The position numbers and the translations under genes are program-made. The notes under the pieces were generated by a model that was given only the letters and a program-made list of their open reading frames with translations, was not told the DNA's origin and searched no databases. This document shows, piece by piece, positions 8,825 to 56,811 of a stretch of 64,000 bases of DNA. The stretch is from Panicum virgatum. Its lineage: Eukaryota; Streptophyta; Magnoliopsida; Poales; Poaceae. The DNA lies in assembly GCF_016808335.1 (NCBI RefSeq), contig NC_053142.1:2803802-2867801 (forward strand), in the 5' to 3' direction. Numbering within the stretch: position 1 is the stretch's first letter; the number at the start of each line of letters is the position of its first letter.

Positions 8825-9365
8825 CAACTATGGTTGGGCTTACGTGGTTAGCACGGTGGCATACATAAATACGGCTCTCCCTATATAGCTAGTCGATACA
8901 TTCTAACCGTTCTTATCTTATCGAACCGCGGTTAGTGTACCTGCAGAAGATTGACAGAACATATATATATCCAATGAACCTTTCATGCCAGCACACATGA
9001 AAGCGTCCCCATACATTACCGCTTACTATAGAAGCGGCAGCCATACAATTTCCGCCGTATGGCCAACGTTAACATACGCTACTCAGTGGCGTATTCACAA
9101 GTTCCTTTACTCCCAATATAGTCGACCAAGATCGATATATTGGCAGCAGCTCAATTAGGCCACTACTTGAGCGCAGCGTTCGGTTCGCATCGCGACGGGA
9201 AGGTCAGACTCCCTCAGCTGACTGAGCACACTTTACTTCCAATATAGTCAACTAATAGTCGGTATATTGGAAGCACCTCAAGTAAGCCACTACTTGAGGG
9301 CAGCGTTCGGTTCGCATCACCGACGGGAAGGTCAGACTCCCTCAGCTGACTGAGGATCCTTACCT
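8825..9365 (-). promoter_or_regulatory. Tekay-1 structured leader RNA
   Basis: Between PBS and ORF0 lies a chain of inverted repeats that also occurs, with compensatory changes, in Tekay-2 (46280-46730). Stems: 8980-9003 CTTTCATG/CATGAAAG; 9019-9037 CCGCTT/AAGCGG; 9041-9062 CCATAC/GTATGG; 9074-9094 ATACGC/GCGTAT. Next comes a module CCAATATA/TATATTGG plus CTCAA/TTGAG plus CTCAGCTGACTGAG, present twice here (about 9110-9230 and 9232-9354) and once in Tekay-2. On the minus strand the block is followed at 8941/8940 by CTGCAG|GTAC, a candidate splice donor. Packaging, dimerisation or translation control are possible roles; this is inference. Confidence 0.7.
9110..9354 (-). repeat. Tandem duplication of a leader hairpin module
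   Basis: Two imperfect copies with a period of about 122 bases. Each contains CCAATATA...TATATTGG, a CTCAA-type stem, GCAGCGTTCGGTTCGCATC and TCAGCTGACTGAG. Tekay-2 keeps a single copy. Confidence 0.85.
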
Positions 9366-9639: not shown

Positions 9640-12600
9640 TGTGGCAGAACCACCTGAATTATCCCGGCTTAAGTGCGCAGGCCATCACCATAAAGGCAAC
9701 ACCGGCTCAAACGCACTTCAAATAGAACAATCCTTGGTCTGTCGGGTAACATCCCGATACAACCACCGGTTCTCGGATCGAACAAGCATACCCCGCACGA
9801 CGGCGAGTCCAAAGATATTACAACCACCCTTTTACAACACAGACATAGTAATGATTACAAACCAGTTCAAACCTATTATTACAAAACCAACTTAAGTAAA
9901 ACCGTTATACAAGCCACTTAAGTTCAGAGTTTAGACAGCGGAAGATAAAACACGACGGCCACAACACGTCGCAAAAGGATACCAGGCTAGCCCAAGCATG
10001 GTATCACTCGTCATAGTCATTGCCGGTCGAAGACGTATCCCACTCTACGGACCAGCCAGGAGGCAACGAGCAAGGATAGGTCAAGCTAGCGGTCTGTTCC
10101 TCAAAACTCATACCTGAAAAAGGGTTTCAACAGCAAGGCTGAGTATTCTAATACTCAGCAAGACTTAACCGTCAACGGGTATACTAAGCCCACTTTAGCT
10201 AGACTATGCAGGGTTTGTGAGGCTCTGGTTTCCTTTTTGCTGAAAAGCAATAAAGAGTAGATCCTTACTTTCAAGTTTTAGCTTTCAAGATTCTAGTAGA
10301 TTAACCATTCTATGTAAGCAACTACTAATCAACCATGGTAGATATTTAAGCAAACATCAAAATTGAATATCATAATGTTGCTCTTATTACTCTGTGTGGC
10401 AAAGAGATCAAGCAGTCCCAAACTGTGGGAAGCAGACGATTCGAATCGAATTTCTTAACCTGGCTAGGCAAACCTAACACACACGTCTGGAACACCATCG
10501 GGTCATTCCCAAACAACCGTTGACCTTTCTTTCCGGCTTGTGGATAGTGCCACTCTCCCCGACTACAGGGCTCCAAGGCCGAACCTTGTCCCTCGAAGTC
10601 GTAGTGTTGCGCAACATAAAAACAAAACCTATCCCTAAGAGAGAGTGGGAGGTATATCCACTCCCCGGTCCAATCGGCTACTAGGCTTACCGCGTACCAT
10701 ATTTACGGCATGTGGCTAGTACGTTCAAAAACTTAACCAGCACTACCACACACCGCGACCTTAGCAAGTTCATCAACACAGACGGGGTCTCACATAAAGT
10801 CATGATATCGAACACAACCCCGTCCGTCGTCCTTATATTGATAACAGAAAGTAAACAAGCGGTTCCTATAAAGCTCGCGAGTGACAGGCAATCACTCGAC
10901 TTTTACCGGTCCTATAAGCTTAGCAATTATTCGAACTCAGGTCTAGTGTTCAGTACATAGGTTCCTAAGATCATGCATCTAGGGTTTCAATTCAAATCCT
11001 AAGAACTGTAAATGCACAAGTAAATAATAACAGTAAATGGTATTAATTTAAAATATAGGTTATGTCCGGGGCTTGCCTTCTCAGTAGTCACTAACTATTT
11101 CAGCTCTAGGCTCTTCCGAACTTTGGTCCGGGGCTTCAGTTAGTACGGCGGTGTTTGCTTGAGCTTCGAGATCACCTCCTTCGGAATCCGGGATCAGCTC
11201 GTACGTCCCGTCCGAATAAAGCAGTCGTATCTATATGTAATGCAAGAACAGTATTATAAACACACATGGGCAATCGTTTATAGAGTAGCTAATTAACAAA
11301 TCTAACTACACAAGGCATCATGATCAACAGCACAAATGAAGTTTACTAACTTCATAAACAAGTGGGGGTGATTTCCTATAACAAGTAAGTCAGGGTTTGC
11401 TAATAAATAAACAACTCAAAGCACAAACAGAAATAAATTAGAAAAAATTACCCTAAACAGAACATGAACAGATTAAGCTACCCTGTAAAACTCATGCCAA
11501 AACATGTAGCCATTTATTCACAACAAACCATTCATTCAGACAACACCTAGAACAAGCTTGAATTATACAGGTCAAACTATAGCAAACTAGAAGCTCAAAA
11601 TTTAAAAGAAGGTCGATACAGAAATGAACTAGCAACTGTGAATTTTTCATGATTTTATCTATAAAGAATTAATTCTGAGAAAATAAACAAAACATACATC
11701 AGATTAGCAAGATTCATTTTTAGCTCCTGTTCTAGTCATGAACTGAGGCTCAAACTTTATGTACAAGCTAATCTATTCAAAAAGGTCACTCAGAAATATT
11801 TTCATGATTTATCATCAGCATAAACTATTTAACATAAATTAAGTCTACTAAACAAGGATTAAAACAAATAAATAGCTACACTAGAGAACTGATCATGAAA
11901 TTTTTATAGCCATACTAGTGTTACAAGAACAAACTACCATAAAAGTTTCACTACAAGAGATGGCTTCAATCATCAGTTAAGAAAAAGATAAAACATCTAG
12001 TATTTATTTACCTAGTGACACAAAACCATTTATACAGCAAAAACTTGCAACAAACACCTACCATATTATGGTTCTACTGCAAAGAGCTTTACACAAGGAT
12101 TCCAGAACATCAAGATTTGCTATTTTACGAATTTCTACTGAATTTCAAAGTTCTCAGCTAGAAATTACAAAGAAGTCCTTAGAGCACTATTCAAATGTGT
12201 CACTGACTATTCAAAGAACACCCTGGGTTTTCTTTTCTTTCAACCCGAGGTCCCTGGGCCGGGTCAGAGGGGGAACGCGGAGTTTGACTGGCCGTTTCCC
12301 GGCGAGGGGATCACCGACGGCGAGGGGAAACAGGAGTGGGGGCTAAAGGGGTCCAAGGCGCACCTCTGGGTGCTTGGAATCGAGGCTGGGGTGGTCGGGA
12401 AAGTGGATGTCGACGGCGAGCGGCGGCTTGCGGAGCTCGGCTACGGCGGCGGGGTAACTCCGGTGGAAGATGGTCGACGGGAAGTAGCCCGTGAGCTGCG
12501 TGAGAGGGAGGCAAAGCTATTTGCATGGTCGATTTGCGCGGAGCAGCTCTGGAATAGTGGGGCGACGGCGGGGTGAGCTCGCCGGCGTTCAAGCGGGGCG

Positions 12601-30915: not shown

Positions 30916-31235
30916 GGGATTTTTTCTTTTTTATATTTAAAAAAAATCAAAATTTCAAAAATAAATGTCCGTTTTGAAAATTTTCAAAAATACCCCCCGG
31001 TCGCCCTATGGGGGCGACAGGCCCTAGATGTAATTTTTTTTCTTTAAATTTGTAATGAAAGGCGGGCATGTCGCCCCCCCAACGGGCGACAGGGTCCCTC
31101 CCCCCTATATAAGAGCCCTGGCCGTCATTCCCTTATCATTTGAGCTTAAAAATTTAGGAAAAAAGAGAGGGGTGAGGAGAAGAAAAGCGGCGAAGCTCTG
31201 CCGAATTCCGCACTTGTGATCTACCGGTAACTTCC
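30916..31235 (+). repeat. MULE left terminal inverted repeat with promoter and 5' UTR exon
   Basis: Matches the complement of 56380-56811: TTTATATTTAAAAAAAATC, GTCCGTTTTGAAAA, CCCGGTCGCCCTATGGGGGCGACAGG, CTAGATGTAATTTTTTT. A TATA box (TATATAA, 31106-31112) reads inward, followed by GAGAGGGGTGAGGAG and GTGATCTACCG|GTAACTT, a splice donor at the inner end. Confidence 0.88.
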
Positions 31236-31522
31236 GTATGAATCCGTTGATATTGTATAACAATTTAATTTAATTAGCGGATTAGCTGAATTAGATTTGG
31301 TGCTTTAGAACACTTGTTTAGTATTACAATTTGAGTACTATTACAGACTTGTTTTTAAATTAATTATGCATTAGAATAGAATTATGACAATACCTTATTG
31401 ATATAGCAGCATAAGACAATAGAATTATGACAGTACCTATATTTTCACGTATTGATTTGGTATACGATATGTGCATTATTTAAATCATTGTTCGTCATTT
31501 GGCGCACCACACTATAGCGCCA

Positions 31523-35093: not shown

Positions 35094-38000
35094 TGTGGCG
35101 GAACCACCCAAAACTACTGGGCCCGGGTGCACTGATCTTCGTTGCTAAGCAACTCTGACCCAATTTGGCACTCACCGGTAGTTCCTCGAGTGAAGCCTCG
35201 ATAAAAGCCACGCTATTCCAGGATCAGCAGACAACACTCACACGAAGGTGAGCCCAGAGATTACAACACAAACCATTTCATACATCTCAGAGTGATTGCA
35301 GCGGAAAGAAAATTTATTACAAACCATGTTCAGACTAGCGAAGTACTACGGAGTTCCAACTCCTCAAATTATTCAAGTCTCAAAGTTCAGCGGAAGCATT
35401 AAAAGATAACTAACGAAATAACGTGACGCATCGGTAAAGCCCGTACGAATGCGTCACTCAGCGGGAGGGTGATTAGCACTAGCTGAAGGGCCATCCCACT
35501 CAACAGACCAACCCGGAAGCAGAGTGCAAGGCCAAGTAAGACTCGCAAACAGATCTTCAAAGTTAGTACCTGAAAAACAGTGCCACAAGCAAGGCTGAGT
35601 ATACTATTACTCAGCAAGACTGACCCGTCTCCGGATATAACATAGTCCGGTAACTAGACATGCAAGGCTTTTTGGTTGGTGGGGTTTGTTTGCCAAAAAA
35701 TGCCGCTAAGTGTTGATCCTTATTTTCAGATTTTATCTAGCCATCTTCTAGTTGGATTAACCATTCTAATTTGCATCTAACTCTACACAAACATGGTAGA
35801 GCAATCATTTAATCAACCAGCAGTATTATCATCATCATATTCCACTTGTTACTCTATGTGACCGAAATCATTAAGCAATCTCATGCCGTGAGAGGCGGAC
35901 GATTCTGAATCGAATTTCAACCTGGCCAGGGGAACCTAGACCACACGCATGGGGATCGACTTCGCTCCCGCCCACGCTACTTTTCCCCTTTCTTTCCAGT
36001 CCGTGGATCCGGAACACCCTCCCCGACTACAGAGTCCGACCACTCTGCACCCGTACGTCGCGACATAAAAATAAACCCTACTTCTACCAGGAGGGTGCGA
36101 GATCGTTCCACTCGCCGGTCCAATCAGGTACTTAAGCTTACCGATTACCATATTTCTCGGTATGTGGCTAGTACTTTCAAACGCTTAGCGAAATGAGCCA
36201 CACACCGCGACCTTAGCCATTTTTGACTACACCAGCGGGGTATCACAACTACACAACCCCGCCCGTTGTCCTTACATTTCAACAGGAATTAAAGTCGGTA
36301 CAATTCCTATTTGCTCGCGAGGGGCAGGAAACCACTCGACTTCTACCGTACTTATTTAGCATGGCAACTAGTCGATAAAAAGATCCGGTATCAAACATAG
36401 GTTCCTATGGATCATGCATCTAGGGTTTTCGATCAACGCCTAGAGAACTTAAATGCAGAAAACCAACTATTACCATACATTAATAAATAGATAGCAGAAT
36501 GATAATTCAAAAAAAAATAGTGGGATTATGCTCCGGGGCTTGCCTTCTTGGGCACTGTCTGGTAGAAAAGCTTCTGGGGCTTGGCCCAGGTCTTGGGACA
36601 AGTTAGTACAGTTCAGATTAACCTCCTGCTCCGCACGAGAGTCCGCGGGCACCAGTTCGTAGTCTCCGTCCGCGAGGTTAACCGTTTCTATATGCAATGC
36701 AAGATTTTGAGTTATTCAGGGATATAATTTCTTTCCTTCACGATAAAGTTGTAGTCCATGAAAGTTAATTTAGTAATGATTTCACATTTCATTGCATGGG
36801 CAATCGTTTATAGAGTAGCAAACATAACTACGGTTATTCATGAATGAGTGGGGTTTTGGGTTTTCATTTTTAATTTCAACACATAGCATGCTTTCATTAT
36901 TCCTTAACAACACAACTACTAAAAAGCTAGTGATGAAACACTAAAGTAACTCAGATTCAAACTTGAACATTCAGGGTATAAATTTCAGCATCTACCATAG
37001 AGCAAGAACTATAACTATTCATGCAAATGGATTACTCTAGTTACTTCATCTTTTTGTACAGAATGTTCAACATGGATTCTGGTGCTACAAATTTTATGCA
37101 AGCAACTTCAAAGCATAAACTCAGTACTGAAATTTTTCCAGATTTTATACAGTTATATAGCAGAGGTGATAAAAAGATTAAAAACAGCAAGCCATCAACA
37201 AAGATTAAATCTACAGAAAGTTTTACTAAGGATTTGGTTCTCAAATTTTTACCAGAGACTAGTCCTGAGTTAAACATACTCCAGAAAATTTTTCAAGATT
37301 TAACTCACTATGATAAATTAGTTATTCAGTTAACTTAACATGAGTTTGCATAAATTTCTCAAGATGCATTTGACCAGTATTGCATCTGAACTTTTTATCA
37401 CAGGTAGAACATACTCTAAACAAGATCATGCCCAAAAAAAATGGTCAGAAACATTGTAGATTACTCAAAACAAAAATAGTAAATCTAGCCCTAAGATGCT
37501 AAGCATGATTATTCACCAAAGCAAAACTCAGTAAATGCAGCTCAAAATTCTTAGACAGGAACACAGAGCTAAAAAGAGACTCCAGAAATAAACATGGATT
37601 TTTCTGAGCATAAGAACTATATATAAGGAATTAAGTTGATAAGAAAAGCATAAATCATGGTATATAGCAAATGAATTCTAATAAATCTTAAATTTAGGTA
37701 TTAACAGTGTTTTAGTCTTACATGCACGCAGTAAAAATTCCAGGGCAAGTTCATGTGCATATTTTCCAGAATTAAATCGAGAAAGCTAACAACAGATTAG
37801 AGAATCTTGATTGTTCCAACATGATAACTGTTTTGGGTTGGTGTCATCTTTTTACTGTGATATTAAAATTCCATTAGTGATAACATATCCAAAAATCAAG
37901 GTCATTTGATGGGTAGAACTTCATGAACATGCATAAGGTGGTTTTCTTATTCTTTTCCCTAGATTAAATTCGGCTGAGTTTCTGCAAATGTGAATGTTAC

Positions 38001-39489
38001 AAAATTTGTAGATTTTGTTACAAGGATTCCAGATCAGTTGAGTTTGCATTTTTCTGATTTTTCTGTGATTTGTTTCGCATTTTAGAAGTTCACTGGTATA
38101 CACTGTAAAACTTGCAGAGACACCCTTGAACGGAAAAAAAGAAATTACAACCGGGTCCTTCGCCGGCCTTCTCCGCCGTGGCATCTTGCCGGTGGTGTTC
38201 TGCGGTGCAGGGCTTACCGGGGCTGCCACGGGGAGGCGCGTGGGGGAGAAAGGATCGAGGAACACCTACCCTGGTCGACGTTCGAGCGTTTGGAGCACAG
38301 GTTCAAGCTCGTCGGCGTTGATGGCGGGTCGGTTGTTCGGTTCGCCGACGCTGGAGGCGAAGGAGGGCTCGGGGTAGGGGAACAAGGCGCGCACGAGCAC
38401 CGCGTGAGCTCGTGGATGCTTCTGGGGTAGCTGTCGGGCTCGGTCTTCCCCGGAGCTGGCCGGTCCGCGGTGAGCCTGAGCTCGCCGGCGGCGGCGCAAA
38501 AGGGGAACGGCTTCGGGAGGGGGTTTGGATTCGATTCCACGCGCGTGGAGCTTAACTGGGAGGTGGCGAAGCTCCTGCGGTGGTCGGAGGGGGCAATGTG
38601 GGGCTGGGCTAGCCGGTCCGCGCGAGCTGGATCTCGGCGGCCATGGCGGAGCGGCGGGAGGAGGAAGAAGAGGGAGAAGGGGGCGCAACTATGGGGTGCT
38701 AGGGGTCTTTATAGGCCAAGGAGCTCCTGGGAGAGGAATGCAGTGACTGGGGGCGGTTGATTTGGTCCTGGGCGACTCGACGGTGAGCGGGCGGAGGAGG
38801 CAGCGGCGCTGCGCCGGCCGGGGTGTCGTGGCGACTCGGGAGCGGCCTGGGACGCGTGTGCGCGCGAGGAGGTGCCAAGGGGCGGGCCAGGTGGCGTGGA
38901 GAGGTTTCCCCGGGTCCATTTGGCCGCGGGCGCGCGGTGGACGAAGTCCACCGGCGGCGTACGGCGGGCGGCGGGCGAAACAGAGCCAGCCGGGAGAGAG
39001 AGATGGAGATGGGGGCTCTTTTGCGATTTCTGAAATTTCCAGGGACCTCTCGGTAAACTAAAATTATCTCCTAATTGGAGGGCTCAAATGGGAAAGTGTT
39101 GAATACCATTTTTGCATAACTTTTCAAGATCTACAACTTTTGTGTTATGCAAATTTTCGTTTGAAACTCACATTTTGAACTATTGGTTCATTTACATATT
39201 TGCACAAAAGGACTTTAGTTTTAATCAGTTTTTGACTTGATTTTGGCTGAAGTTCAATTGAGCACATGTCAATTGAAATACCTCTCATGAGCCAACAAAA
39301 ATTTTGTGCACATTTTTGAATTAAAATTTTAGTAGTTTTTCACTCCTTTCTCTTTTTCCTTTAATTTCTTTTGTATGATTTGTATTTTATTTGGTCCTTT
39401 CTCTTTGAATTAGTTTCCCAAATTTTTCTTTTAACTTTAACTAAGGTGTATTGATTGGATTTAAAAGTATTGACACCTGAGGTGTCACA
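35094..39489 (-). repeat. Tekay-2 3' LTR (4396 bp)
   Basis: Minus strand runs TGTGACACC (39489) to TTCCGCCACA (35094). A TATA box (complement TATAAAG) lies at 38707-38713, about 780 bases inside the LTR. This leaves a short U3 and about 3.6 kb of R-U5. The GC-rich block at 38150-39050 yields long spurious ORFs on both strands. Confidence 0.97.
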
Positions 39490-39505
39490 ACCTACCCCCC
39501 TTAAA
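39490..39505 (-). other. Tekay-2 polypurine tract
   Basis: Minus strand TTTAAGGGGGGTAGGT abuts the 3' LTR start. Same position and form as in Tekay-1. Confidence 0.92.
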
Positions 39506-42500
39506 AAGAATCTCGTCCCGAGATTGGATGATTGAATTGAGGCGGGGAAAATGATATACCTGAGGTGGAGCTAATGAAACCCGGATAATGTCGATTAAGA
39601 TAATCCTCCGTCTCCCAGGTGGCTTCTTCTTCGATGTGATGAGACCACTGAATTTTATACATTTTTACCACCTTTCGACGAGTACCTCTCTCTTTTTGAT
39701 CCAGAATTCTGAGTGGATATTCGGTATATGAGAGATCGGGCTCCACTAAAATTTCATGTTGATCAATGATTTCCGTAGGAACTCGAACACATTTCTTAAG
39801 TTGGGATATGTGGAAAACATTATGGATGGCGGCAAGTCGTGAAGGAAGTCGCAAACGATAAGCCACGGGTCCACATTCTTCAATGATTTCATATGGCCCG
39901 ACATAGCGAGGTGCGAGCTTACCCCTAACTCCGAAACGTTGAACGCCTCGAGTTGGAGACACTCGTAAATAGACGTGGTTACCAACCATGAACTTCAAAG
40001 GATCCCTTCTTTTATCGAAATAACTCTTTTGCCGAGACTGAGCTGCTCGGAGATTAGCTTGTACTATTTTGACTTTCTCCTCAGCCTCGACCACTAATTC
40101 GGGTCCAAATATTTGACGTTCCCCAGTCTGAGACCAACTCAAAGGAGTTCGACACCGTCGACCATACAAGGCCTCGAAGGGTGCCATCTTCAGACTGGCC
40201 TGATAGCTGTTATTATAAGAAAACTCAGCCAAGGATAAACATTTGTCCCAGTTTTTGTCATAATGGATGACACATGCTCGAAGCATATCCTCAAGAATTT
40301 GATTCACCCTTTCGGTCTGTCCGTCAGTCTGTGGATGGTAAGCTGAGCTTCGAATTAATTTAGTTCCGAGAGCCTCTTGAAGTTGCTCCCAAAACCTTGC
40401 CACAAACTGAGGATCACGATCCGATATAATTGTTTTTGGTATACCGTGTAGGCAGACAATCCGATCAATATAGATCTCAGCATATTTCTTGGCTCGATAT
40501 TCAGTATGCACTGGAATAAAATGAGCAGTCTTTGTGAGCCTATCAACAATGACCCAAATGGAATCATGGTGCTGAGAAGTATTTGGTAAGCCCACGATGA
40601 AATCCATGCTGATATCTTCCCATTTCCAAGACGGAATCGGTAGAGGTTGGAGAGTTCCAGCAACTTTCAAGTGACTAGCTTTCACTCTCTGGCAGGTGTC
40701 ACATTCTGCGACATATTTGGCAATCTCTCTCTTCATGCGAGTCCACCAAAAATTTTGCCTGAGATCTTGGTACATCTTGGTGCTGCCCGGATGAATAGAG
40801 AATTTAGAGAGATGTGCTTCGTCCAGGATTTGTTTCCGCAGGTCATGATTCTTTGGAACGACTAGGCGATCCTTGAACCACAAAATTCCTTTATGGTCCA
40901 CTCGGAAACACTTATATTTATTTTCACCTTCTACTACTTGCTGCTTGATGATACCAACACTTTTGTCGTGTAATTGTGCCATGATGACCTGGTCATAGAG
41001 TGTTGGTTCCACCGAAATATGATTCAAAGAGCCCTGAGGAATAATTTCTAATTTCAGCCTTTGCATTTCAGCACACAATGTGTCATTATATGACTCCATT
41101 GATAGGCAATTGCAGTGAACCTTGCGACTGAGCGCATCGGCTACAACATTCGCCTTGCCCGGATGATAATGAACCTCCAGATCATAATCTTTAATTAATT
41201 CCAGCCATCTTCGTTGCCTCATATTCAGCTCACTTTGAGTGAAAATGTATTTGAGACTCTTATGGTCGGTATAGATATTGCAATGAGTGCCCATAAGATA
41301 ATGTCTCCAAAGCTTGAGAGCATGAATAACGGCGGCTAGTTCCAGATCATGAGTGGGATAATTTAGCTCGTGTGGCCGAAGAGCTCGGGAAGCATAAGCT
41401 ATCACCCGATTGTCTTGCATTAGAACACAACCAAGACCAGTGCCTGAAGCATCACAATAAACGTCGTATGGTTTATTGTTGTCAGGTTGAGCCAAGACTG
41501 GTGCAGTGGTTAGATGTGCTCTCAATGTATGGAATGCTTCATCACACTTCGTGTTCCATTTAAACTTGACATCTTTCCTTAGTAGTTCTGTCATGGGCTT
41601 AGCAATTCTGGAGAAGTCCGGAATAAATCTGCGGTAATACCCTGCCAAGCCGAGAAAACTGTGGATCTGATGAACTGAAGTAGGAGGTTTCCAGTCCATC
41701 ACTTCTTGTACTTTGCTGGGATCAACTGAAATGCCTTCACTAGATATAGTGTGACCCAGAAATTTGACTGTGTCCAGCTAGAATTCACACTTGGAGAATT
41801 TTGCGTACAGCTTATGATCTCTGAGACGTTGAAGAACAATGCGCAGGTGTTGCTCATGTTCTACCTCATCTTTGGAATAGATCAGAATGTCGTCAATAAA
41901 AACCACGACAAACTTGTCAAGTTCCGGCATAAATACCGAGTTCATGAGATACATGAAATAGGCCGGAGCATTGGTGAGACCGAAAGACATAACCAAGTAC
42001 TCATAGAGACCATATCGGGTTGAGAAGGCGGTCTTGGGAATATCGCAAGGCCGGATTTTAATTTGATGATAACCCGAACGAAGATCAATCTTGGAGAAAA
42101 TCTTTGCTCCAGCCAATTGATCAAACAATACATCAATGCGGGGAAGTGGATATTTATTTTTGATGGTCACCGCATTGAGAGGCCGGTAATCAACACACAA
42201 CCTCAGACTATCATCCTTCTTCTTTACGAACAATGCTGGACAGCCCCAAGGTGAAGCACTTGGGCGGATAAAACCCTTGTCCAACAGTTCTTGTAGCTGG
42301 ATTTTTAGTTCAGCCAATTCTTTAGGCGGCATTCGGTATGGCCTTTTTGAAATAGGTGTTGTACCAGGCTGAAGTTCAATGACAAATTCGATATCCCGGT
42401 CTGGCGGCATACCAGGTAAATCTTCTGGAAAAACATCTACATACTCACGGACTACCGGAATATCTTCGAGACGAATATCTTTCATGGCATAGGCACAAGA

Positions 42501-44024
42501 GTTGTGACATTGATGATGTGGTAAATATAGAACCGAATGACCATGAGTTGGAGAATTTATTTCAACGGCTCGGGAAGAGATATCTAACATTACCCCATGT
42601 CTTTTCATCCAATCCATTCCTAGTATAATGTCCATACCTTCTAGTGGCAACAATATCAAGGTGGTAGGAACAGTTTTACTACCCAAACTAAGTGGCGCAT
42701 TATGAACAATTTGGTTTGATGCGACTTTACCACCCGGAGTAGATATCATGAATGAACCTTTCGTGTGACAGAAATCTAACCCAACCCTTGCTCCGAATTT
42801 AGAACTAATGAAGCTATGAGATGCACCAGAATCGAATAAAATGACGGTGGGGTGTTGATTTATAGAGAATGTACCCGACATGATTGGTGCTCCCTCAGGA
42901 AGGTCAGCAAGGTTGGTGAAGTTAAGTCGGCCCTGCCTGACTTGAATGGTTTGCCTCTTGCCCTTGTGCTGATCATTTCTGCGAGAAGCCTGCCCTTGAG
43001 ATTGTCCCGCCTGGGGGCACATCTTGGCAAAGTGATCCGGACTCCCGCATCTGAAACAGCGGTTATTATTATCAGGGCGAGCGGCTGGCTGAGCATTTGG
43101 CCTAGGGCCGTTCTGCTGCTGCTGAGGTGCAAATCGAGCTTGCTGGGGAAGCCCGAATCGAGTCTGCTGCTGCTGTTGAGGAGGCCTAATAATCCAACGC
43201 CCTGGCTGAGGGGCCTTCTGAGAGGATGCGGGTGGGTTATTTTGCACAATACGATACCTCGGTGCAGAGGCACTCGAGGGTCCAGCAGGTGCCTTGCGCT
43301 TCTTTTCAGCGCGGTGTGCAGAAATCAGATCCTCCTGAGATATGGCCATATTCACCAATTCATTGAATGAGTCTGCTCGGACAAGGTTTAGCCTCTCTTC
43401 TAATTTGGTACTAAGGCCTCGACGGAAGCGCTCACGCTTCTTAGCGTCGGTATCGGCATGATGTCCAGCATACTGACACAATTGATGGAATACTTGAGCA
43501 TATTGCACCACGGTACGAGTGCCCTGAGTCAAGGCCAAGAACTCGTTAAGCTTACGGTCAAGAAGTCCAGCTGGAATATGATGATCTCGAAAAGCCAATT
43601 TGAATTCATTCCAATTCACCACATGATCAGCCGGTAGCATCCCGTGGTAATGATCCCACCACATACGAGCTGATCCGCGAAGCTGCTGCGCGGCATAGCG
43701 AGTCTTGTTCGCTTCGGAACAAGGAGTAGTCAATAGAGAAAACTTGGACTCGATCGTGCGAATCCAAGCGTCAGCGTCCAGAGGCTCATCCGCTTTATTG
43801 AACAGCGGAGGCTGAGTGCTGAGGAAATCTTGGTAGCTCGCCTCTTGTGCGTGATGAGCATGATGCCCACCCCGCGGTTGTTGCTGAGCTTGAACCAACT
43901 GCCGCAAAATCTCTGTCTGGGCAGCAAGAACCTCAGCAATACCCATTGGTGGAGGAGGTGGAGGTGGATCGCCATTCCCTCCGGCTCCAAAACCACTAGG
44001 GGTGCCTCGAGTTGATCCAACCAT
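39501..44024 (-). pseudogene. gag-pol: Tekay-2 gag-pol polyprotein, one in-frame stop
   Basis: A single frame of 1508 codons runs from ATG 44024 (directly after CAG) to a stop overlapping the PPT. Domains: gag with Pro run and Gln-rich linker (1-320), CCHC knuckle [14 protein letters not shown] (about 322), retropepsin [14 protein letters not shown] (about 395), RT ending with FIDDILIYS (about 707). RNase H follows ([13 protein letters not shown]), then integrase HHCC (HPGSTKMY...[11 protein letters not shown]), its DDE core ([26 protein letters not shown]) and a chromodomain (YTEYPLRILD...EEEATWETE). The TAG at 41778-41780 sits in SKCEF*LDTVKFLG, where Tekay-1 has TGG (Trp). The break falls inside RT, so the product would stop before RNase H unless read through. 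The chromodomain probably guides insertion to marked chromatin. Confidence 0.95.
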
Positions 44025-44678: not shown

Positions 44679-45578
44679 CTACATGTTGACCGATGCCTCA
44701 CTCGCCGCGGGAGTGTGAACCTCAACCGGTGCGGGCTGCGGCGCCTGGTCCTCGGAGTCCATCTCTGAAACGCCCTCTATCTCCTGGGGCTCGTCCTCCT
44801 CGTCCACCTGCATCTCGTCGGGAGGTGCGTGAAGGGCATCCTGCGCGTGCTGTATCGCGTGGAGCTGCCCCTGAGCCTCGTCCATCTCAAGCTGCAGGTC
44901 GTGAAACTGGTCCTCCAGGAAGTTGATCGTAGCGTCACGATCCGACACAGTGTCCTGAAGCTCGTGAACCTGGCCGTGGAGCTGGGCGATAAGAGTAGCC
45001 CTGCTCTCGAGCTCGGTACTAGCCTCCTGAAGCTGCCCATCTCTCAGCTGGACCGCCAGGTGCAAGGCCTGAGCGTGGTCCACCAACTGAGCGACGGCGT
45101 AACTCTGGTAAGTGTGAAGTCTGTAAAGGCCATCCAAGCACATCGCTGTCGTCCGAAGTGCCCCGACCGGGTCAAGGGTAGCGACCACGTCCACATGTGC
45201 CATCCGGTCGAGCCAAAGCGGGTCTGCCGGGTCAGGTGTAGGGAACAACCCGAACGCGGTCAGAACCACCTCCAGAGGGCGCAAAGAGCAAAAGGTGGTC
45301 ATCGCCCTCATGGCGGTAAGCTCCCAGGTGTCCAGCAGGTAGTGACCGACCATCTGAGTCACGATCGGCTCCCACCCGTTGAGCGGGTGCTGCGGGATCA
45401 CCATCGTCACACTGCAGCGACGAACTCCGTCCTCCACAAACTTGTGGCCATCGTAAACCGGTGGCTGGAGGTAACCGGCTGCACTCAAAAGCTCCCAAAG
45501 ACGGCGGGGAAACCCGTCCCAGTGCAGGCAAGCGGAGTGCACGTGCCCCTGCGCATCAACGACCAGCAGCTCTTCCAT
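44679..45578 (-). CDS. Tekay-2 ORF0: intact extra protein upstream of gag
   Basis: 299 residues from ATG 45578, which follows a CAG acceptor (TCTTTTGTTGGGACAG). The frame can be extended upstream only with non-ATG codons. The N-terminal half is globular-looking (CLHWDGFPRRLWELL, VTMVIPQHP, AMRAMTTFC). From about residue 190 a coiled coil is predicted by heptad leucines (LIAQLHGQVHELQDTV, INFLEDQFHDLQLEM). The C-terminus is acidic (QVDEEDEPQEIEGVSE). Tekay-1 has a homologue with the same layout and clear divergence, so the ORF was kept during family evolution. No enzyme motif, zinc finger or membrane segment is visible. A structural or regulatory role is a guess. The 266-residue ORF on the other strand is a shadow. 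Confidence 0.8.
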   Translation of the reverse strand: MEELLVVDAQGHVHSACLHWDGFPRRLWELLSAAGYLQPPVYDGHKFVEDGVRRCSVTMVIPQHPLNGWEPIVTQMVGHYLLDTWELTAMRAMTTFCSLRPLEVVLTAFGLFPTPDPADPLWLDRMAHVDVVATLDPVGALRTTAMCLDGLYRLHTYQSYAVAQLVDHAQALHLAVQLRDGQLQEASTELESRATLIAQLHGQVHELQDTVSDRDATINFLEDQFHDLQLEMDEAQGQLHAIQHAQDALHAPPDEMQVDEEDEPQEIEGVSEMDSEDQAPQPAPVEVHTPAASEASVNM

Positions 45579-46279
45579 CTGTCCCAACAAAAGACCGATG
45601 GATCAGCTGATGGTAACAAGAACTACTAACTCTGGAACAGTGAAAGAAATGGCCAAAAACTGTAGAGAACTTGCTTCAAAAATTCTCAAAAATTTACACA
45701 AGGTCCCTCTGATGTTAAGGAACAATTCACCTAGTCATCACTAAGCTCAATTCGGATTCCATGGGGGTGATATGCTCAGGTATTCAGAGTGAAGTCAACC
45801 AGGAAAACTGAGTGTCCAGAGTGGGTGTATTTTGACTATAACTCTCAATCCAGACGTCAAAAATTCTTCAAATTTTTATGGTAAGCTCATCACTTAGTTG
45901 TCTACAACTTTCATGTTGAACGATTTTTAGTTTGAACAACTTATAAAGGTCGAAAAATTTCAGTTGTATAGACTGTTCAGAGTTAACAGTTTTACACAGG
46001 GTTGATCCAAAAATACAAATACCATGCTAGAAGGCTTCAAAAATTTTCAAATTTTTACAGAAGCTTGATAACTTAGGAAACATCATTTAGTCTTACTACC
46101 CCAAGTCGATTTGAGTAACTTATCAGAAGGTTAAAATTCGTGGAAACCAGGTTGCAGACTTTCTGGATACTCCCTAGGATAGTGTTTTAACGGATTTGCT
46201 TGCGATTTCCCCCGAGATTTATTTGCTAATCTTTTTGAGAATGAATGCAGAACCTATACGTCCTCACCAAGGAAAAAAA
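45579..46279 (-). other. Tekay-2 leader, candidate intron part
   Basis: AT-rich, no coding signal. If the donor at 46396/46395 (CTGCAG|GTACG) joins the acceptor before ORF0, this stretch is intron. Confidence 0.5.
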
Positions 46280-46730
46280 TTGCCAAGTAACCTTGGTCTT
46301 ACGCAATGACTTTGGTGGCATACATATTACGTCTCTCACTATATAGCTACTCGATATAGCTAGATAGCCTATAATTCGATTTCGAGTTAGCGTACCTGCA
46401 GAAGATTGACAGCATATAAAATGAACCTTTCGTGCCAGCACTCACGAAAGCGTCCCCATACATTACCGATCACTATAGAATCGGCATCCATACCATTACC
46501 GCCGTATGGACAACGTTAAGCATACGTTATCGAAACAACGTATTGACTGAGTACCGTCTTTGACGGGGAATTGAATTCCAATTTCGAACCATTACTCCCA
46601 TATACTCAACCGAAGTTGGTATATGGGCAGCAGCTCAAGTAGGCCACTGCTTGAGCTCCAGCGTTCGGCTCGCATCACCGACGGGAAGGTCAGACTCCCT
46701 CAGCTGACTGAGTAAGCATACCTTCGTGGC
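46280..46730 (-). promoter_or_regulatory. Tekay-2 structured leader RNA
   Basis: Hairpins in the same order as in Tekay-1: 46427-46450 CTTTCGTG/CACGAAAG; 46466-46484 CCGAT/ATCGG; 46488-46509 CCATAC/GTATGG; 46522-46543 ATACGTT/AACGTAT. Then CCCATATAC/GTATATGGG (about 46597-46627, inner CAAC/GTTG), GCTCAAG/CTTGAGC (about 46633-46656) and CTCAGCTGACTGAG (near 46698-46712). Several stems differ from Tekay-1 by paired changes that keep base pairing. The candidate donor CTGCAG|GTACG follows at 46396/46395. Confidence 0.72.
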
Positions 46731-46965: not shown

Positions 46966-46977
46966 GCTCTGATGCCA
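46966..46977 (-). other. Tekay-2 primer-binding site (initiator tRNA-Met type)
   Basis: Minus strand TGGCATCAGAGC, two bases inside the 5' LTR. One base differs from the usual TGGTATCAGAGC. Confidence 0.92.
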
Positions 46978-46979
46978 GC

Positions 46980-49900
46980 TGTGGCGGAACCACCCAAAAC
47001 TACTGGGCCCGGGTGCACTGATCTTCGTTGCTAAGCAACTTTGACCCAATTTGGCACTCACCGGTAGTTCCTCGAGTGAAGCCTCGATAAAAGCCACGCT
47101 ATTCCAGGATCAGCAGACAACACTCACACGAAGGTGAGCCCAGAGATTACAACACAAACCATTTCATACATCTCAGAGTGATTGCAGCGGAAAGAAAATT
47201 TATTACAAACCATGTTCAGACTAGCGAAGTACTACGGAGTTCCAACTCCTCAAATTATTCAAGTCTCAAAGTTCAGCGGAAGCATTAAAAGATAACTAAC
47301 GAAATAACGTGATGCATCGGTAAAGCCCGTACGAATGCGTCACTCAGCGGGAGGGTGATTAGCACCAGCTGAAGGGCCATCCCACTCAACAGACCAACCC
47401 GGAGGCAGAGTGCAAGGCCAAGTAAGACTCGCAAACAGATCTTCAAAGTTAGTACCTGAAAAACAGTGCCACAAGCAAGGCTGAGTATACTATTACTCAG
47501 CAAGACTGACCCGTCTCCGGATATAACATAGTCCGGTAACTAGACATGCAAGGCTTTTTGGTTGGTGGGGTTTGTTTGCCAAAAAATGCCGCTAAGTGTT
47601 GATCCTTATTTTCAGATTTTATCTAGCCATCTTCTAGTTGGATTAACCATTCTAATTTGCATCTAACTCTACACAAACATGGTAGAGCAATCATTTAATC
47701 AACCAGCAGTATTATCATCATCATATTCCACTTGTTACTCTATGTGACCGAAATCATTAAGCAATCTCATGCCGTGAGAGGCGGACGATTCTGAATCGAA
47801 TTTCAACCTGGCCAGGGGAACCTAGACCACACGCATGGGGATCGACTTCGCTCCCGCCCACGCTACTTTTCCCCTTTCTTTCCAGTCCGTGGATCCGGAA
47901 CACCCTCCCCGACTACAGAGTCCGACCACTCTGCACCCGTACGTCGCGACATAAAAATAAACCCTACTTCTACCAGGAGGGTGCGAGATCGTTCCACTCG
48001 CCGGTCCAATCAGGTACTTAAGCTTACCGATTACCATATTTCTCGGTATGTGACTAGTACTTTCAAACGCTTAGCGAAATGAGCCACACACCGCGACCTT
48101 AGCCATTTTTGACTACACCAGCGGGGTATCACAAGTACACAACCCCGCCCGTTGTCCTTACATTTCAACAGGAATTAAAGTCGGTACAATTCCTATTTGC
48201 TCGCGAGGGGCAGGAAACCACTCGACTTCTACCGTACTTATTTAGCATGGCAACTAGTCGATAAAAAGATCCGGTATCAAACATAGGTTCCTATGGATCA
48301 TGCATCTAGGGTTTTCGATCAACGCCTAGAGAACTCAAATGCAGAAAACCAACTATTACCATACATTAATAAATAGATAGCAGAATGATAATTCAAAAAA
48401 AAAATAGTGGGATTATGCTCCGGGGCTTGCCTTCTTGGGCACTGTCTGGTAGAAAAGCTTCTGGGGCTTGGCCCAGGTCTTGGGACAAGTTAGTACAGTT
48501 CAGATTAACCTCCTGCTCCGCACGAGAGTCCGCGGGCACCAGTTCGTAGTCTCCGTCCGCGAGGTTAACCGTTTCTATATGCAATGCAAGATTTTGAGTT
48601 ATTCAGGGATATAATTTCTTTCCTTCACGATAAAGTTGTAGTCCATGAAAGTTAATTTAGTAATGATTTCACATTTCATTGCATGGGCAATCGTTTATAG
48701 AGTAGCAAACATAACTACGGTTATTCATGAATGAGTGGGGTTTTGGGTTTTCATTTTTAATTTCAACACATAGCATGCTTTCATTATTCCTTAACAACAC
48801 AACTACTAAAAAGCTAGTGATGAAACACTAAAGTAACTCAGATTCAAACTTGAACATTCAGGGTATAAATTTCAGCATCTACCATAGAGCAAGAACTATA
48901 ACTATTCATGCAAATGGATTACTCTAGTTACTTCATCTTTTTGTACAGAATGTTCAACATGGATTCTGGGTGCTACAAATTTTATGCAAGCAACTTCAAA
49001 GCATAAACTCAGTACTGAAATTTTTCCAGATTTTATACAGTTATATAGCAGAGGTGATAAAAAGATTAAAAACAGCAAGCCATCAACAAAGATTAAATCT
49101 ACAGAAAGTTTTACTAAGTATTTGGTTCTCAAATTTTTACCAGAGACTAGTCCTGAGTTAAACATACTCCAGAAAATTTTTCAAGATTTAACTCACTATG
49201 ATAAATTAGTTATTCAGTTAACTTAACATGAGTTTGCATAAATTTCTCAAGATGCATTTGACCAGTATTGCATCTGAACTTTTTATCACAGGTAGAACAT
49301 ACTCTAAACAAGATCATGCCCAAAAATAATGATCAGAAACATTGTAGATTACTCAGAACAAAAATAGTAAATCTAGCCCTAAGATGCTAAGCATGATTAT
49401 TCACCAAAGCAAAACTCAGTAAATGCAGCTCAAAATTCTTAGACAGGAACACAGAGCTAAAAAGAGACTCCAGAAATAAACATGTATTTTTCTGAGCATA
49501 AGAACTATATATAAGGAATTAAGTTGATAAGAAAAGCATAAATCATGGTATATAGCAAATGAATTCTAATAAATCTTAAATTTAGGTATTAACAGTGTTT
49601 TAGTCTTACATGCACGCAGTAAAAATTCCAGGGCAAGTTCATGTGCATATTTTCCAGAATTAAATCGAGAAAGCTAACAACAGATTAGAGAATCTTGATT
49701 GTTCCAACATGATAACTGTTTTGGGTTGGTGTCATCTTTTTACTGTGATATTAAAATTCCATTAGTGATAACATATCCAAAAATCAAGGTCATTTGATGG
49801 GTAGAACTTCATGAACATGCATAAGGTGGTTTTCTTATTCTTTTCCCTAGATTAAATTCGGCTGAGTTTCTGCAAATGTGAATGTTACAAAATTTGTAGA

Positions 49901-51378
49901 TTTTGTTACAAGGATTCCAGATCAGTTGAGTTTGCATTTTTCTGATTTTTCTGTGATTTGTTTCGCATTTTAGAAGTTCACTGGTATACACTGTAAAACT
50001 TGCAGAGACACCCTTGAACGGAAAAAAGAAATTACAACCGGGGTCCTTCGCCGGCCTTCTCCGCCGTGGCATCTTGCCGGTGGTGTTCTGCGGTGCAGGG
50101 CTTACCGGGGCTGCCACGGGGAGGCGCGTGGGGGAGAAAGGATCGAGGAACACCTACCCTGGTCGACGTTCGAGCGTTTGGAGCACAGGTTCAAGCTCGT
50201 CGGCGTTGATGGCGGGTCGGTTGTTCGGTTCGCCGGCGCTGGAGGCGAAGGAGGGCTCGGGGTAGGGGAACAAGGCGCGCACGAGCACCGCGTGAGCTCG
50301 TGGATGCTTTCTGGGGTAGCTGTCGGGCTCGGTCTTCCCCGGAGCTGGCCGGTCCGCGGTGAGCCTGAGCTCGCCGGCGGCGGCGCAAAAGGGGAACGGC
50401 TTCGGGAGGGGGTTTGGATTCGATTCCACGCGCGTGGAGCTTAACTGGGAGGTGGCGAAGCTCCTGCGGTGGTCGGAGGGGGCAATGTGGGGCTGGGCTA
50501 GCCGGTCCGCGCGAGCTGGATCTCGGCGGCCATGGCGGAGCGGCGGGAGGAGGAAGAAGAGGGAGAAGGGGCGCAACTGTGGGGTGCTGGGGGTCTTTAT
50601 AGGCCAAGGAGCTCCTGGGAGAGGAATGCAGTGACTGGGGGCGGTTGATTTGGTCCTGGGCGACTCGACGGCGAGCGGGCGGAGGAGGCAGCGGCGCTGC
50701 GCCGGCCGGGGTGTCGTGGCGACTCGGGAGCGGCCTGGGACGCGTGTGCGCGCGAGGAGGTGCCAAGGGGCGGGCCAGGTGGCGTGGAGAGGTTTCCCCG
50801 GGTCCATTTGGCCGCGGTGCGCGCGGTGGACGAAGTCCACCGGCGGCGTACGGCGGGCGGCGGGCGAAACAGAGCCAGCCGGGAGAGAGAGATGGAGATG
50901 GGGGCTCTTTTGCGATTTCTGAAATTTCCAGGGACCTCTCGGTAAACTAAAATTATCTCCTAATTGGAGGGCTCAAATGGGAAAGTGTTGAATACCATTT
51001 TTGCATAACTTTTCAAGATCTACAACTTTTGTGTTATGCAAATTTTCGTTTGAAACTCACATTTGAACTATTGGTTCATTTACATATTTGCACAAAAGGA
51101 CTTCAGTTTTAATCAGTTTTTGACTTGATTTTGGCTGAAGTTCAATTGAGCACATGTCAATTGAAATACCTCTCATGAGCCAACAAAAATTTTGTGCACA
51201 TTTTTGAATTAAAATTTTAGTAGTTTTTTCACTCCTTTCTCTTTTTCCTTTAATTTCTTTTGTATGATTTGTATTTTATTTGGTCCTTTCTCTTTGAATT
51301 AGTTTCCCAAATTTTTCTTTTAACTTTAACTAAGGTGTATTGATTGGATTTAAAAGTATTGACACCTGAGGTGTCACA
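46980..51378 (-). repeat. Tekay-2 5' LTR (4399 bp)
   Basis: Near-identical partner of 35094-39489. The TATA box (complement TATAAAG) at 50595-50601 should start the element's minus-strand transcript near 50570. About 3.6 kb of R-U5 therefore precedes the PBS. The 228-residue ORF at 50154-50840 is GC-rich composition, not a gene. Confidence 0.97.
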
Positions 51379-53091: not shown

Positions 53092-53129
53092 ACCTGCATT
53101 CAAAAATATATGAGAACACATAGGTACAT

Positions 53130-53362
53130 ATATGTTTCATACAAACTGGACGCGTAATATTTATACATTACAGATAGGTTCGATACAAACTCCACGCACG
53201 ATTACTATATATTACAGATAGGTTCGATACAAACTCCACGCACGATATTTATACATTACAGATATGTTCCATACAAACTAGACGCACGATATTTATACAT
53301 TACAGATATGTTCCATACAAACTGGACGCACGATTACTACATATTACAAATATGTTCGATAC
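53130..53362. repeat. 44-bp tandem repeat between PMD and transposase
   Basis: About five imperfect copies of ATTACAGATAKGTTCGATAC-AAACTSSACGCACGAT with a period of about 44 bases. It fills the gap between the PMD start and the transposase stop, where the PMD promoter would lie. Confidence 0.85.
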
Positions 53363-53371
53363 AATTGTGGA

Positions 53372-56013: not shown

Positions 56014-56379
56014 ATCTGTATATCACAGAATACTTATCGAGTTATACTCTTTACTTCACTACCTTATTCAATAATCCGTAAAAACTAAGTATGGAATTCA
56101 ACTACAACGTATAAGTATTCATAACTACGTGATGACACTCAAATTCTATACTGCATATGCCAAATTCTATTCTAAATCGTAATTAATTTATAAACACGTC
56201 TCTAATAGTACTGCAATTGTAATAATAAGTGCGTAGTACTAATTTTCTAAACTAATTTACTACTACGTAACTAAAGTATCATTAAACTCCTACTTAAATG
56301 GTTCTACTATAGCACTAATTAAATTAAATTACTCTACAATACCAATGGAAAAATACATAAACTAAATGTACTAACCTGC
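56014..56379 (-). other. Presumed 5' UTR intron of the transposase gene
   Basis: AT-rich. The minus strand goes from GATCTGCAG|GTTAGTAC (56376/56375) in the right TIR to ATACAG just before ATG 56013. No coding signal. Confidence 0.55.
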
Positions 56380-56811
56380 AGATCACAAGTGCGGAATCCG
56401 GCAAGGCTTCGCCGCTTTCTTTCTCCTCACCCCTCTCTTTTTTTCTGGATTTTTGGTGGAATTTTCGGGCTCAAATGAGGAGGGAATGGGGGTCGGATGC
56501 TTATATAGGGGGTATAGCCCGGTCGCCCGTGGGGGGGGGGGGGGGGACAGGCCCCCCTGTCGTGCCTGTGGGCGGGGGCCACCGGTCGCCCGAGGGGGGG
56601 CGACAGGCCCCCCTGTCGCCCGTTGGGAGGGGGCGACAGGCCCCCCTTTTATTTTTTTTTCCAACCATGGTTGCAAATTTGAAGAAAAAAAAAATTACAT
56701 CTAGAGCCTGTCGCCCCCCATAGGGCGACCGGGGATAGTTTTGAAATTTTTCAAAACGGACATATATTTTTGAAATTTTGATTTTTTTTAAATATAAAAA
56801 GAAAAGAACGC
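56380..56811 (-). repeat. MULE right terminal inverted repeat with promoter and 5' UTR exon
   Basis: Counterpart of 30916-31235. It is longer because of extra GTCGCCC/GGGCGAC units and a run of 18 G near 56531. A TATA box reads inward (complement CTATATAA, 56501-56509). The exon shares GAGAGGGGTGAGGAG and ends at CTGCAG|GTTAGT. Confidence 0.88.
56515..56730. repeat. GTCGCCC/GGGCGAC palindromic minisatellite in the TIR
   Basis: At least four units of the form GTCGCCC-spacer-GGGCGACAGG separated by C runs. The left TIR has two units (31010-31095). Very G-rich on the plus strand. Confidence 0.8.

Follow-up and report, generated by a model that had tools for sequence, protein, structure and literature searches.

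The 5′ leader of retroviruses of the human immunodeficiency virus 1 (HIV-1) type carries splice-donor, dimer-initiation and packaging hairpins. Among retrotransposons, cis-acting RNA regions with packaging and dimer signals have been described for yeast Ty1 and Ty3 (PMC4974528, PMC5454406), with palindromic or kissing contacts proposed for the Ty1 dimers and a 5′ region that binds Gag (PMC4974528), while in plants barley BARE is reported to make a spliced RNA for Gag and to hold conserved dimerisation and packaging signals (PMC3735527). The available part of a 2025 review contains no occurrence of 'packaging signal' and states that plant elements generally lack introns, with named exceptions (PMC12786077). 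It seems poorly known how a single transcript of a plant long terminal repeat (LTR) retrotransposon is shared out between translation and copying of the genome. Here we analyse two related Ty3/gypsy elements, called first and second in order of position, which both lie on the minus strand of a 64,000-nucleotide (nt) stretch of the Panicum virgatum genome (contig NC_053142.1, positions 2,803,802 to 2,867,801; the window). In both, a chain of hairpins sits between the primer-binding site (PBS) and an extra open reading frame (ORF) that precedes gag, and it is close to certain that this chain is kept by paired changes and shared by a large group of related Tekay-like elements. Retroviruses and yeast Ty elements are already known to have structured leaders that hold packaging and dimer signals; the chain appears to be a variant of these in plant Ty3/gypsy elements. 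It provides an RNA structure that is defined and backed by covariation, has named loops and splice-like sites and occurs in abundant elements of a grass genome, and on it that division of the transcript could be tested.

In sense order after the PBS, a donor stem (h0) that encloses h1 is followed by h3, h4, h5, h6, h7, h8 and h9 (Table 1). The chain shares with the HIV-1 type leader a row of short hairpins between PBS and gag, structure downstream of the donor, a donor sequence within a stem and a single hairpin whose loop holds a 6-nt palindrome, and conserved RNA stems are found here in the place that a retroviral-type packaging and dimerisation leader would occupy. It differs in having more hairpins, in ending at an acceptor-like site before the extra ORF and in that its function is proposed from sequence. 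We know of no sequence relation between the two. As in Ty1 there is a candidate palindromic or kissing loop and a proposed Gag-binding 5′ region, although the Ty1 region includes a pseudoknot at the 5′ end of the RNA, with no intron mentioned in the part of the account available (PMC4974528), whereas the chain lies inside a candidate intron. BARE, also an LTR element of a plant, likewise has a spliced RNA (a candidate here) and dimerisation and packaging signals (proposed here), but it belongs to the Ty1/copia superfamily, and the available part of its description notes no covariation evidence (PMC3735527), in contrast to the Ty3/gypsy elements of the window. Comparable too are the sunflower and grass Tekay elements, chromodomain Ty3/gypsy elements of which typical members have an extra ORF upstream of gag; their account is without leader structure, the words leader, UTR (untranslated region) and upstream having no occurrence in its main text as available (PMC11728184). 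A search of the open-licence literature, with subscription papers outside its range, found no description of such a leader structure for plant Ty3/gypsy elements.

The chain was first proposed in an earlier reading of this DNA made without database searches (hereafter the sequence-only reading), on the ground that four stems had changed in a paired way between the two leaders. All the arms it quoted are present in both leaders at or within the positions it gave, the four paired changes, in h5, h6, h8 and h9, are real (arms in Table 1), CCATAC/GTATGG and CTCAGCTGACTGAG are the same in both elements as it claimed, and the place it assigned to the chain, after the PBS and before the first ORF, holds, with gag-pol on the minus strand. 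Its account did not contain the identity of that first ORF, which is the extra ORF before gag, nor the splice-like bounds of the chain. Nor did it contain two further paired changes, G-C to U-A in the outer pair of the CCATAC stem and C-G to G-C in the outer pair of CTCAAG/CTTGAG. The leader blocks of the two elements are 74% identical and pol is 72% identical by blastn, which listed no match longer than 60 nt in the 2 kb separating leader and pol. For h6-h9 the two-copy alifold energy has z=−6.0 (none of 500 column shuffles as low; z=−5.7 in a repeat with 100 shuffles) and there are 4 compensatory pairs where the null mean is 0.72, a number reached in 2/500 shuffles; the donor-side unit has z=−4.5. 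Thirty control windows from pol of the same two elements, those with more than 20% gaps being excluded, gave a mean z of −0.38 and a minimum of −4.44. Telling against selection on structure, 4 of these 30 windows also have at least 4 compensatory pairs, the 2 compensatory pairs of the donor-side unit are not significant (76/500 shuffles reach 2), the second tandem unit has only z=−1.7, and two-copy and single-copy tests alike find the plus strand to fold no less well than the minus strand. Because of the pol windows that match the leader in compensatory pairs, the two-copy argument is suggestive, not decisive.

The decision in favour of structure comes from the wider set of copies in the host genome (1.13 Gb, 627 contigs). 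Searches with each leader returned 40 and 41 matches from the best 40 scored of 1752 and 2074 first-look candidates, and these copies are 96-100% alike except for one partial match at 93%. Copies so nearly identical say little on covariation, and a pattern built on h8 was therefore used instead, in which the variable 5′ base was barred from taking either form seen in the window, its partner base was left free and CUAUAG was required. This pattern had 399 matches in the genome and its reversed control had none. Among 100 listed of the 399 (contigs C1-C6, counted by hand) the free pair is G-U in 77, U-A in 13, U-G in 5 and G-C in 4, with 1 mismatch, so that a standard pair stands in 99 of 100; with the C-G of the first element and the A-U of the second, all six standard pair types occur at one position of h8. 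The CUAUAG palindrome in the h8 loop is present in both window elements, and also in the 399 matches, where the pattern fixes it. When the first loop base was required to be other than C, the h8 context had only 18 matches, 16 of them single changes of a known form.

Alignments of these copies were tested against the stated structure. In a first set of 25 sequences, left after dropping copies at least 95% alike from the 85 anchored of 88 loci, 95.6% of 894 stem cells pair, as against 33-43% when the structure is slid along the alignment; both sides change in 9 of 36 pairs (6.1 when shuffled; 12/500), there are 32 double-change cells against 13.3±3.0 (0/500), and further pair types number 30 against 27.1 (37/500). 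A second h6-h9 set of 48 sequences, dereplicated at 97% from the 103 anchored of 106 loci, was compared with a tree-based null in which alignment columns were re-evolved independently on the tree. Pairing reaches 95.7% of cells where the null gives 75.4±2.8 (0/1000), double-change cells number 86 where it gives 14.1±7.8 (0/1000), and extra pair types 35 where it gives 27.0 (5/1000). The donor-side block (19 sequences dereplicated at 94% from 147 units in 104 loci) likewise pairs in 93.9% of cells (null 85.0±2.6; 0/1000), with 18 double-change cells (null 3.3±2.9; 0/1000). Since the search pattern itself fixes four of the six h8 pairs, the h6-h9 test was rerun without h8; pairing was then 94.9% against 71.4±3.4 and double changes 64 against 13.7±7.3 (0/500 each). 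Among single helices, h7, h8 and h9 have more double changes than the null (1, 1 and 2 of 500), and h6 has a weak excess (28/500). The claim that paired changes reflect a selected RNA structure is thus upheld in a wider test within the same genome, with 48 dereplicated copies of several forms and a tree-based null.

Several observations in these sets pull the other way. The stricter check named by the sequence-only reading, R-scape-type covariation, came out negative: over all column pairs of the 48-sequence set an R-scape-like test gave no pair an E below 0.05, while the tests of the stated structure were passed. The alignment is dominated by two main clades, some of the top-scoring pairs being loop columns that only mark clades. 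The extra pair types of the donor-side block are not in excess (16 against 13.9; 245/1000), nor are the double changes of h9b, and the final two pairs of h0 are lost in second-type units. A single sequence of the set supplied the stems, the rows of three types of copy (L073, L078 and L095) are misaligned over h9, and the changes on both sides amount to few independent events per pair. One candidate, the outer helix ACGUU/AAUGU of a three-way junction, was dropped at 146/500 with no double change.

Folding energies do not separate the sense from the antisense strand, but the kinds of imperfect pair do. In h6-h9 there is a shortage of A·C cells, whose bases would pair only when read on the antisense strand (39 against 132±31 expected), but none of G·U cells (206 against 212±37), and 95.7% of cells pair in the sense reading as against 86.0% in the antisense; the contrast is weaker in the donor-side block (A·C 14, expected 31±12; G·U 31, expected 42±13). 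Selection thus removes A·C while it tolerates G·U, which points to RNA of the element's own sense. Decay in single copies looks symmetrical, with 5 CG>TG and 5 CG>CA at one h6 pair, as is expected after insertion. The contrast between A·C and G·U also bears on whether there is any RNA function at all, since paired changes would also arise without selection if template switching, in reverse transcription or in repair, corrected palindromes in the DNA. Reverse transcriptase (RT) of retroelements does switch templates, the arms are often perfect, and in the two-copy test of h6-h9 the antisense strand does no less well (z=−7.0 against −6.0). Whole forms nevertheless carry fixed G·U pairs, the commonest listed form of h8 having G-U plus U·G, which would not result if palindromes were being corrected to perfection, and G·U steps are seen on the tree; with A·C depleted and G·U not, we regard such correction as a highly improbable source of the chain.

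In both window elements the chain is bounded by GAAG/GTA(A/T)G and TCTTCTGCAG/G (the slash in splice-like sites marks the candidate junction), which would delimit a GT-AG intron. The plant consensus for such sites is C(A)AG/GTA and CAG/G (PMC3735527). With near-identical copies included, GGTA[AT]G is kept in 99 of 101 first-unit windows, while the letters before it vary (AAG, GAG, ATG, ACG), and an acceptor was located by fuzzy match in 97 of the 103 anchored loci; of these 97 acceptors, 96 keep AG. Pairing is possible between the donor GAAGGT and ACCTTC of the core, with h1 nested inside, and in another common form with donor GGAGGT the pairing with the core is kept through G·U. The first element has two tandem copies of the donor-side unit (~127 nt), and two such units are present in 43 of the 104 loci where the core was found. 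Among dereplicated units GGTA[AT]G occurs in 12/12 first units and GGTA in 0/7 second-type units, where no donor would be needed. Donor- and acceptor-like sequences are shown to end the chain in several element forms. Against an intron stand the following results: the fuzzy match found no acceptor in 6 of the 103 loci (of these, L066 and L095 have TGCAG/G when read, L065 has lost the AG, and L078, L081 and L088 carry other sequence at the acceptor position); the spliced junction of the second element, sought in the genome with up to 2 mismatches, had 0 matches where the reversed control had 8; and the guanine plus cytosine (GC) content of the candidate intron, 0.48, exceeds the 0.38-0.43 of its flanks. 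Plant introns are typically of lower GC than their flanks.

A diverged family and a few other copies show which parts of the chain persist. At least 40 copies of the L095 type, 95-100% identical, occur in the genome, so that this is a family and not a single odd copy. L095 retains an h8 stem of altered sequence and the h9 loop as well as a donor-like CAAG/GTAAGC and an acceptor-like TCTGCAG/G, and its donor-side part (L095:1168-1700) is unrelated sequence that again forms successive hairpins, among them CATCTCGTAA/TTACGAGATG, with a single-sequence z of −2.95. Its h8 loop, GUAUAG, is not a palindrome, a point to be set against a dimerisation loop; L095 is among the 18 matches with another first loop base, and its loop change may be private to that copy, because the h8-context pattern met only that copy of its family. 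In L073 the h9 loop is kept within a different stem, with extra hairpins before h9. L078, L081 and L088 are three similar copies without h9 and the usual acceptor. The sequence-only reading would have been contradicted by stems absent in other family members; most of the chain is in fact kept in these, but not the donor-side part in L095 nor h9 in the three similar copies.

What the chain might do was left by the sequence-only reading among packaging, dimerisation and translation control, each of which is plausible. We tentatively favour, at somewhat below an even chance, a retrovirus-like packaging and dimerisation leader of the full-length RNA, placed inside an optional intron whose splicing, like dimerisation and Gag binding, is predicted from sequence features. 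Unspliced RNA would keep the chain and be chosen by Gag for reverse transcription, and spliced RNA would shed the chain together with its many upstream AUGs (11 within the chain stretch of the second element, 9 in the first) and be used for translation. By enclosing h1, h0 would hide the donor and slow splicing; the 7-nt loop of h8, nearly always with CUAUAG, could start RNA dimers by loop-loop contact; and the GUGCUGG loop of h9 may be a binding site for Gag or a host protein. The zinc knuckle in gag of the second element counts in favour of packaging.

Ranked second to this reading is translation control, in which hairpins and short upstream ORFs would cause shunting or reinitiation to the extra ORF and gag as in plant pararetroviruses. 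The 22 AUGs between the PBS and the AUG of the extra ORF in the second element would suit it, and such behaviour is known from leaders of plant pararetroviruses that hold short ORFs and a stable stem (PMC5902531, PMC2241666); we nevertheless think it rather unlikely, for the folds are mostly a row of small hairpins and no single long stem, and the donor- and acceptor-like ends would be left unexplained. The chain might instead let unspliced RNA leave the nucleus, in the manner of the transport element of mouse MusD, for which a pseudoknot and kissing-loop motifs are reported (PMC12786077). Such a route would presumably be needed by a genomic RNA that carries an intron, but a scan of the window against Rfam gave 0 matches over the gathering cut-off and nothing in the data separates export from packaging, and we hold export to be unlikely as the explanation. 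That the hairpins serve splicing alone, setting the spacing of donor and acceptor with no packaging role, would agree with the donor stem being the most 5′ structure, with the identity of its partner in the two window elements and with the splice-like sites that L095 keeps despite its other donor-side hairpins; the kept letters of the h8 and h9 loops would be unnecessary for spacing, which makes this quite unlikely. Returning to packaging and dimerisation, it is possible, if doubtful, that a modular, retrovirus-like leader exists in a plant Ty3/gypsy lineage, with a stem-hidden donor, a dimer hairpin with palindromic loop and a protein-binding hairpin within an optional intron, and that from family to family whole hairpin modules have been duplicated or replaced by unrelated ones, with the splice sites and both loop sequences largely kept.

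Table 1. Positions in the window of the hairpin chain and of the elements that carry it (a slash separates the arms of a stem or marks a candidate junction).
Feature	Element	Positions	Strand	Remark
5′ LTR (TG...CA)	second	46980-51378	-	blastn, ends read
PBS, TGGCATCAGAGC in sense	second	46966-46977	-	starts at 46977, 2-nt spacer after LTR
Candidate GT-AG intron	second	46721-46396	-	326 nt
h0 5′ arm, donor-like site GAAG/GT(ATG)	second	46720-46725	-	candidate intron starts 46721
h1, CTCAG-TCAG-CTGAG	second	46699-46712	-	identical in both window elements
h0 3′ arm, core ACCTTC	second	46685-46690	-	can pair with donor; paired in minimum-energy fold
h3, CGTCGGT/GCCGAACG	second	46662-46683	-	
h4, GCTCAAG/CTTGAGC	second	46633-46656	-	outer pair G-C or C-G depending on unit
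h5, CCCATATA/TATATGGG	second	46597-46627	-	inner stem variable
h6, ATACGT/ACGTAT	second	46522-46543	-	
h7	second	46487-46510	-	
h8, CCGAT/ATCGG	second	46466-46484	-	loop 46472-46478 CUAUAGU (sense) with 6-nt palindrome CUAUAG; candidate kissing loop
h9, CTTTCGTG/CACGAAAG	second	46427-46450	-	loop mostly (U/A)GUGCUGG
Acceptor-like site TCTTCTGCAG/G	second	46396-46405	-	candidate intron ends 46396
Extra ORF upstream of gag	second	44679-45590	-	303 amino acids from TTG, 299 from ATG at 45578
gag, zinc knuckle, protease, most of RT domain	second	41778-44024	-	Pfam
RNase H, integrase, SH3-like and chromodomain-like end	second	39501-41702	-	Pfam
Other LTR	second	35094-39489	-	blastn against 5′ LTR
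Hairpin chain	first	8941-9363	-	donor-side unit in tandem
Candidate GT-AG intron	first	9363-8941	-	423 nt
Tandem donor-side units	first	about 9105-9230 and 9231-9356	-	
Paired form of h5, CCAATATA/TATATTGG	first	9110-9146 and 9236-9273	-	
Paired form of h6, ATACGC/GCGTAT	first	9074-9094	-	
Paired form of h8, CCGCT/AGCGG	first	9019-9037	-	
Paired form of h9, CTTTCATG/CATGAAAG	first	8980-9003	-	

The label Tekay-like is taken from the sequence-only reading, and its basis here is domain order and the extra ORF, not an RT tree. The LTRs of the second element are 99.4% identical over 4404 nt (blastn), the target-site duplication GCAGC flanks it on both sides, and its PBS is one that we take to be of the initiator tRNA-Met type. 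Pfam places gag, protease, RT, RNase H and integrase in that order across two ORFs, as in chromoviruses of the Tekay clade; a match to the chromodomain family PF00385 at the end of integrase has E 1.2e-4 and 22.4 bits, under the Pfam cut-off of 25.1. An extra ORF before gag is likewise a feature of Tekay members. That of the second element has weak matches to coiled-coil families and 27 database proteins match it at E≤0.001, with identity from 99% down to 29%, the names among these relatives (from two sources) including 'hypothetical protein' and 'chromosome segregation ATPase'; in the first element, related sequence is seen at the protein level (E 1e-24) but is interrupted. A search for an exact 24-nt core pattern had no match in viral contigs or in prokaryote genome contigs, and one of viral contigs with the integrase ORF found none. 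A tRNA scan of the window found nothing.

Some of the seven LTR windows compared between the two elements (10037-11019 and 47379-48346) also beat column shuffles, with a lowest z of −4.05, possibly reflecting structure in the LTR. Elsewhere in the window, blastn identified a separate repeat family as an inverted pair 74-86% alike (30922-31383 and 56163-56805), and a short tandem repeat with units of ~88 nt lies at 53125-53364.
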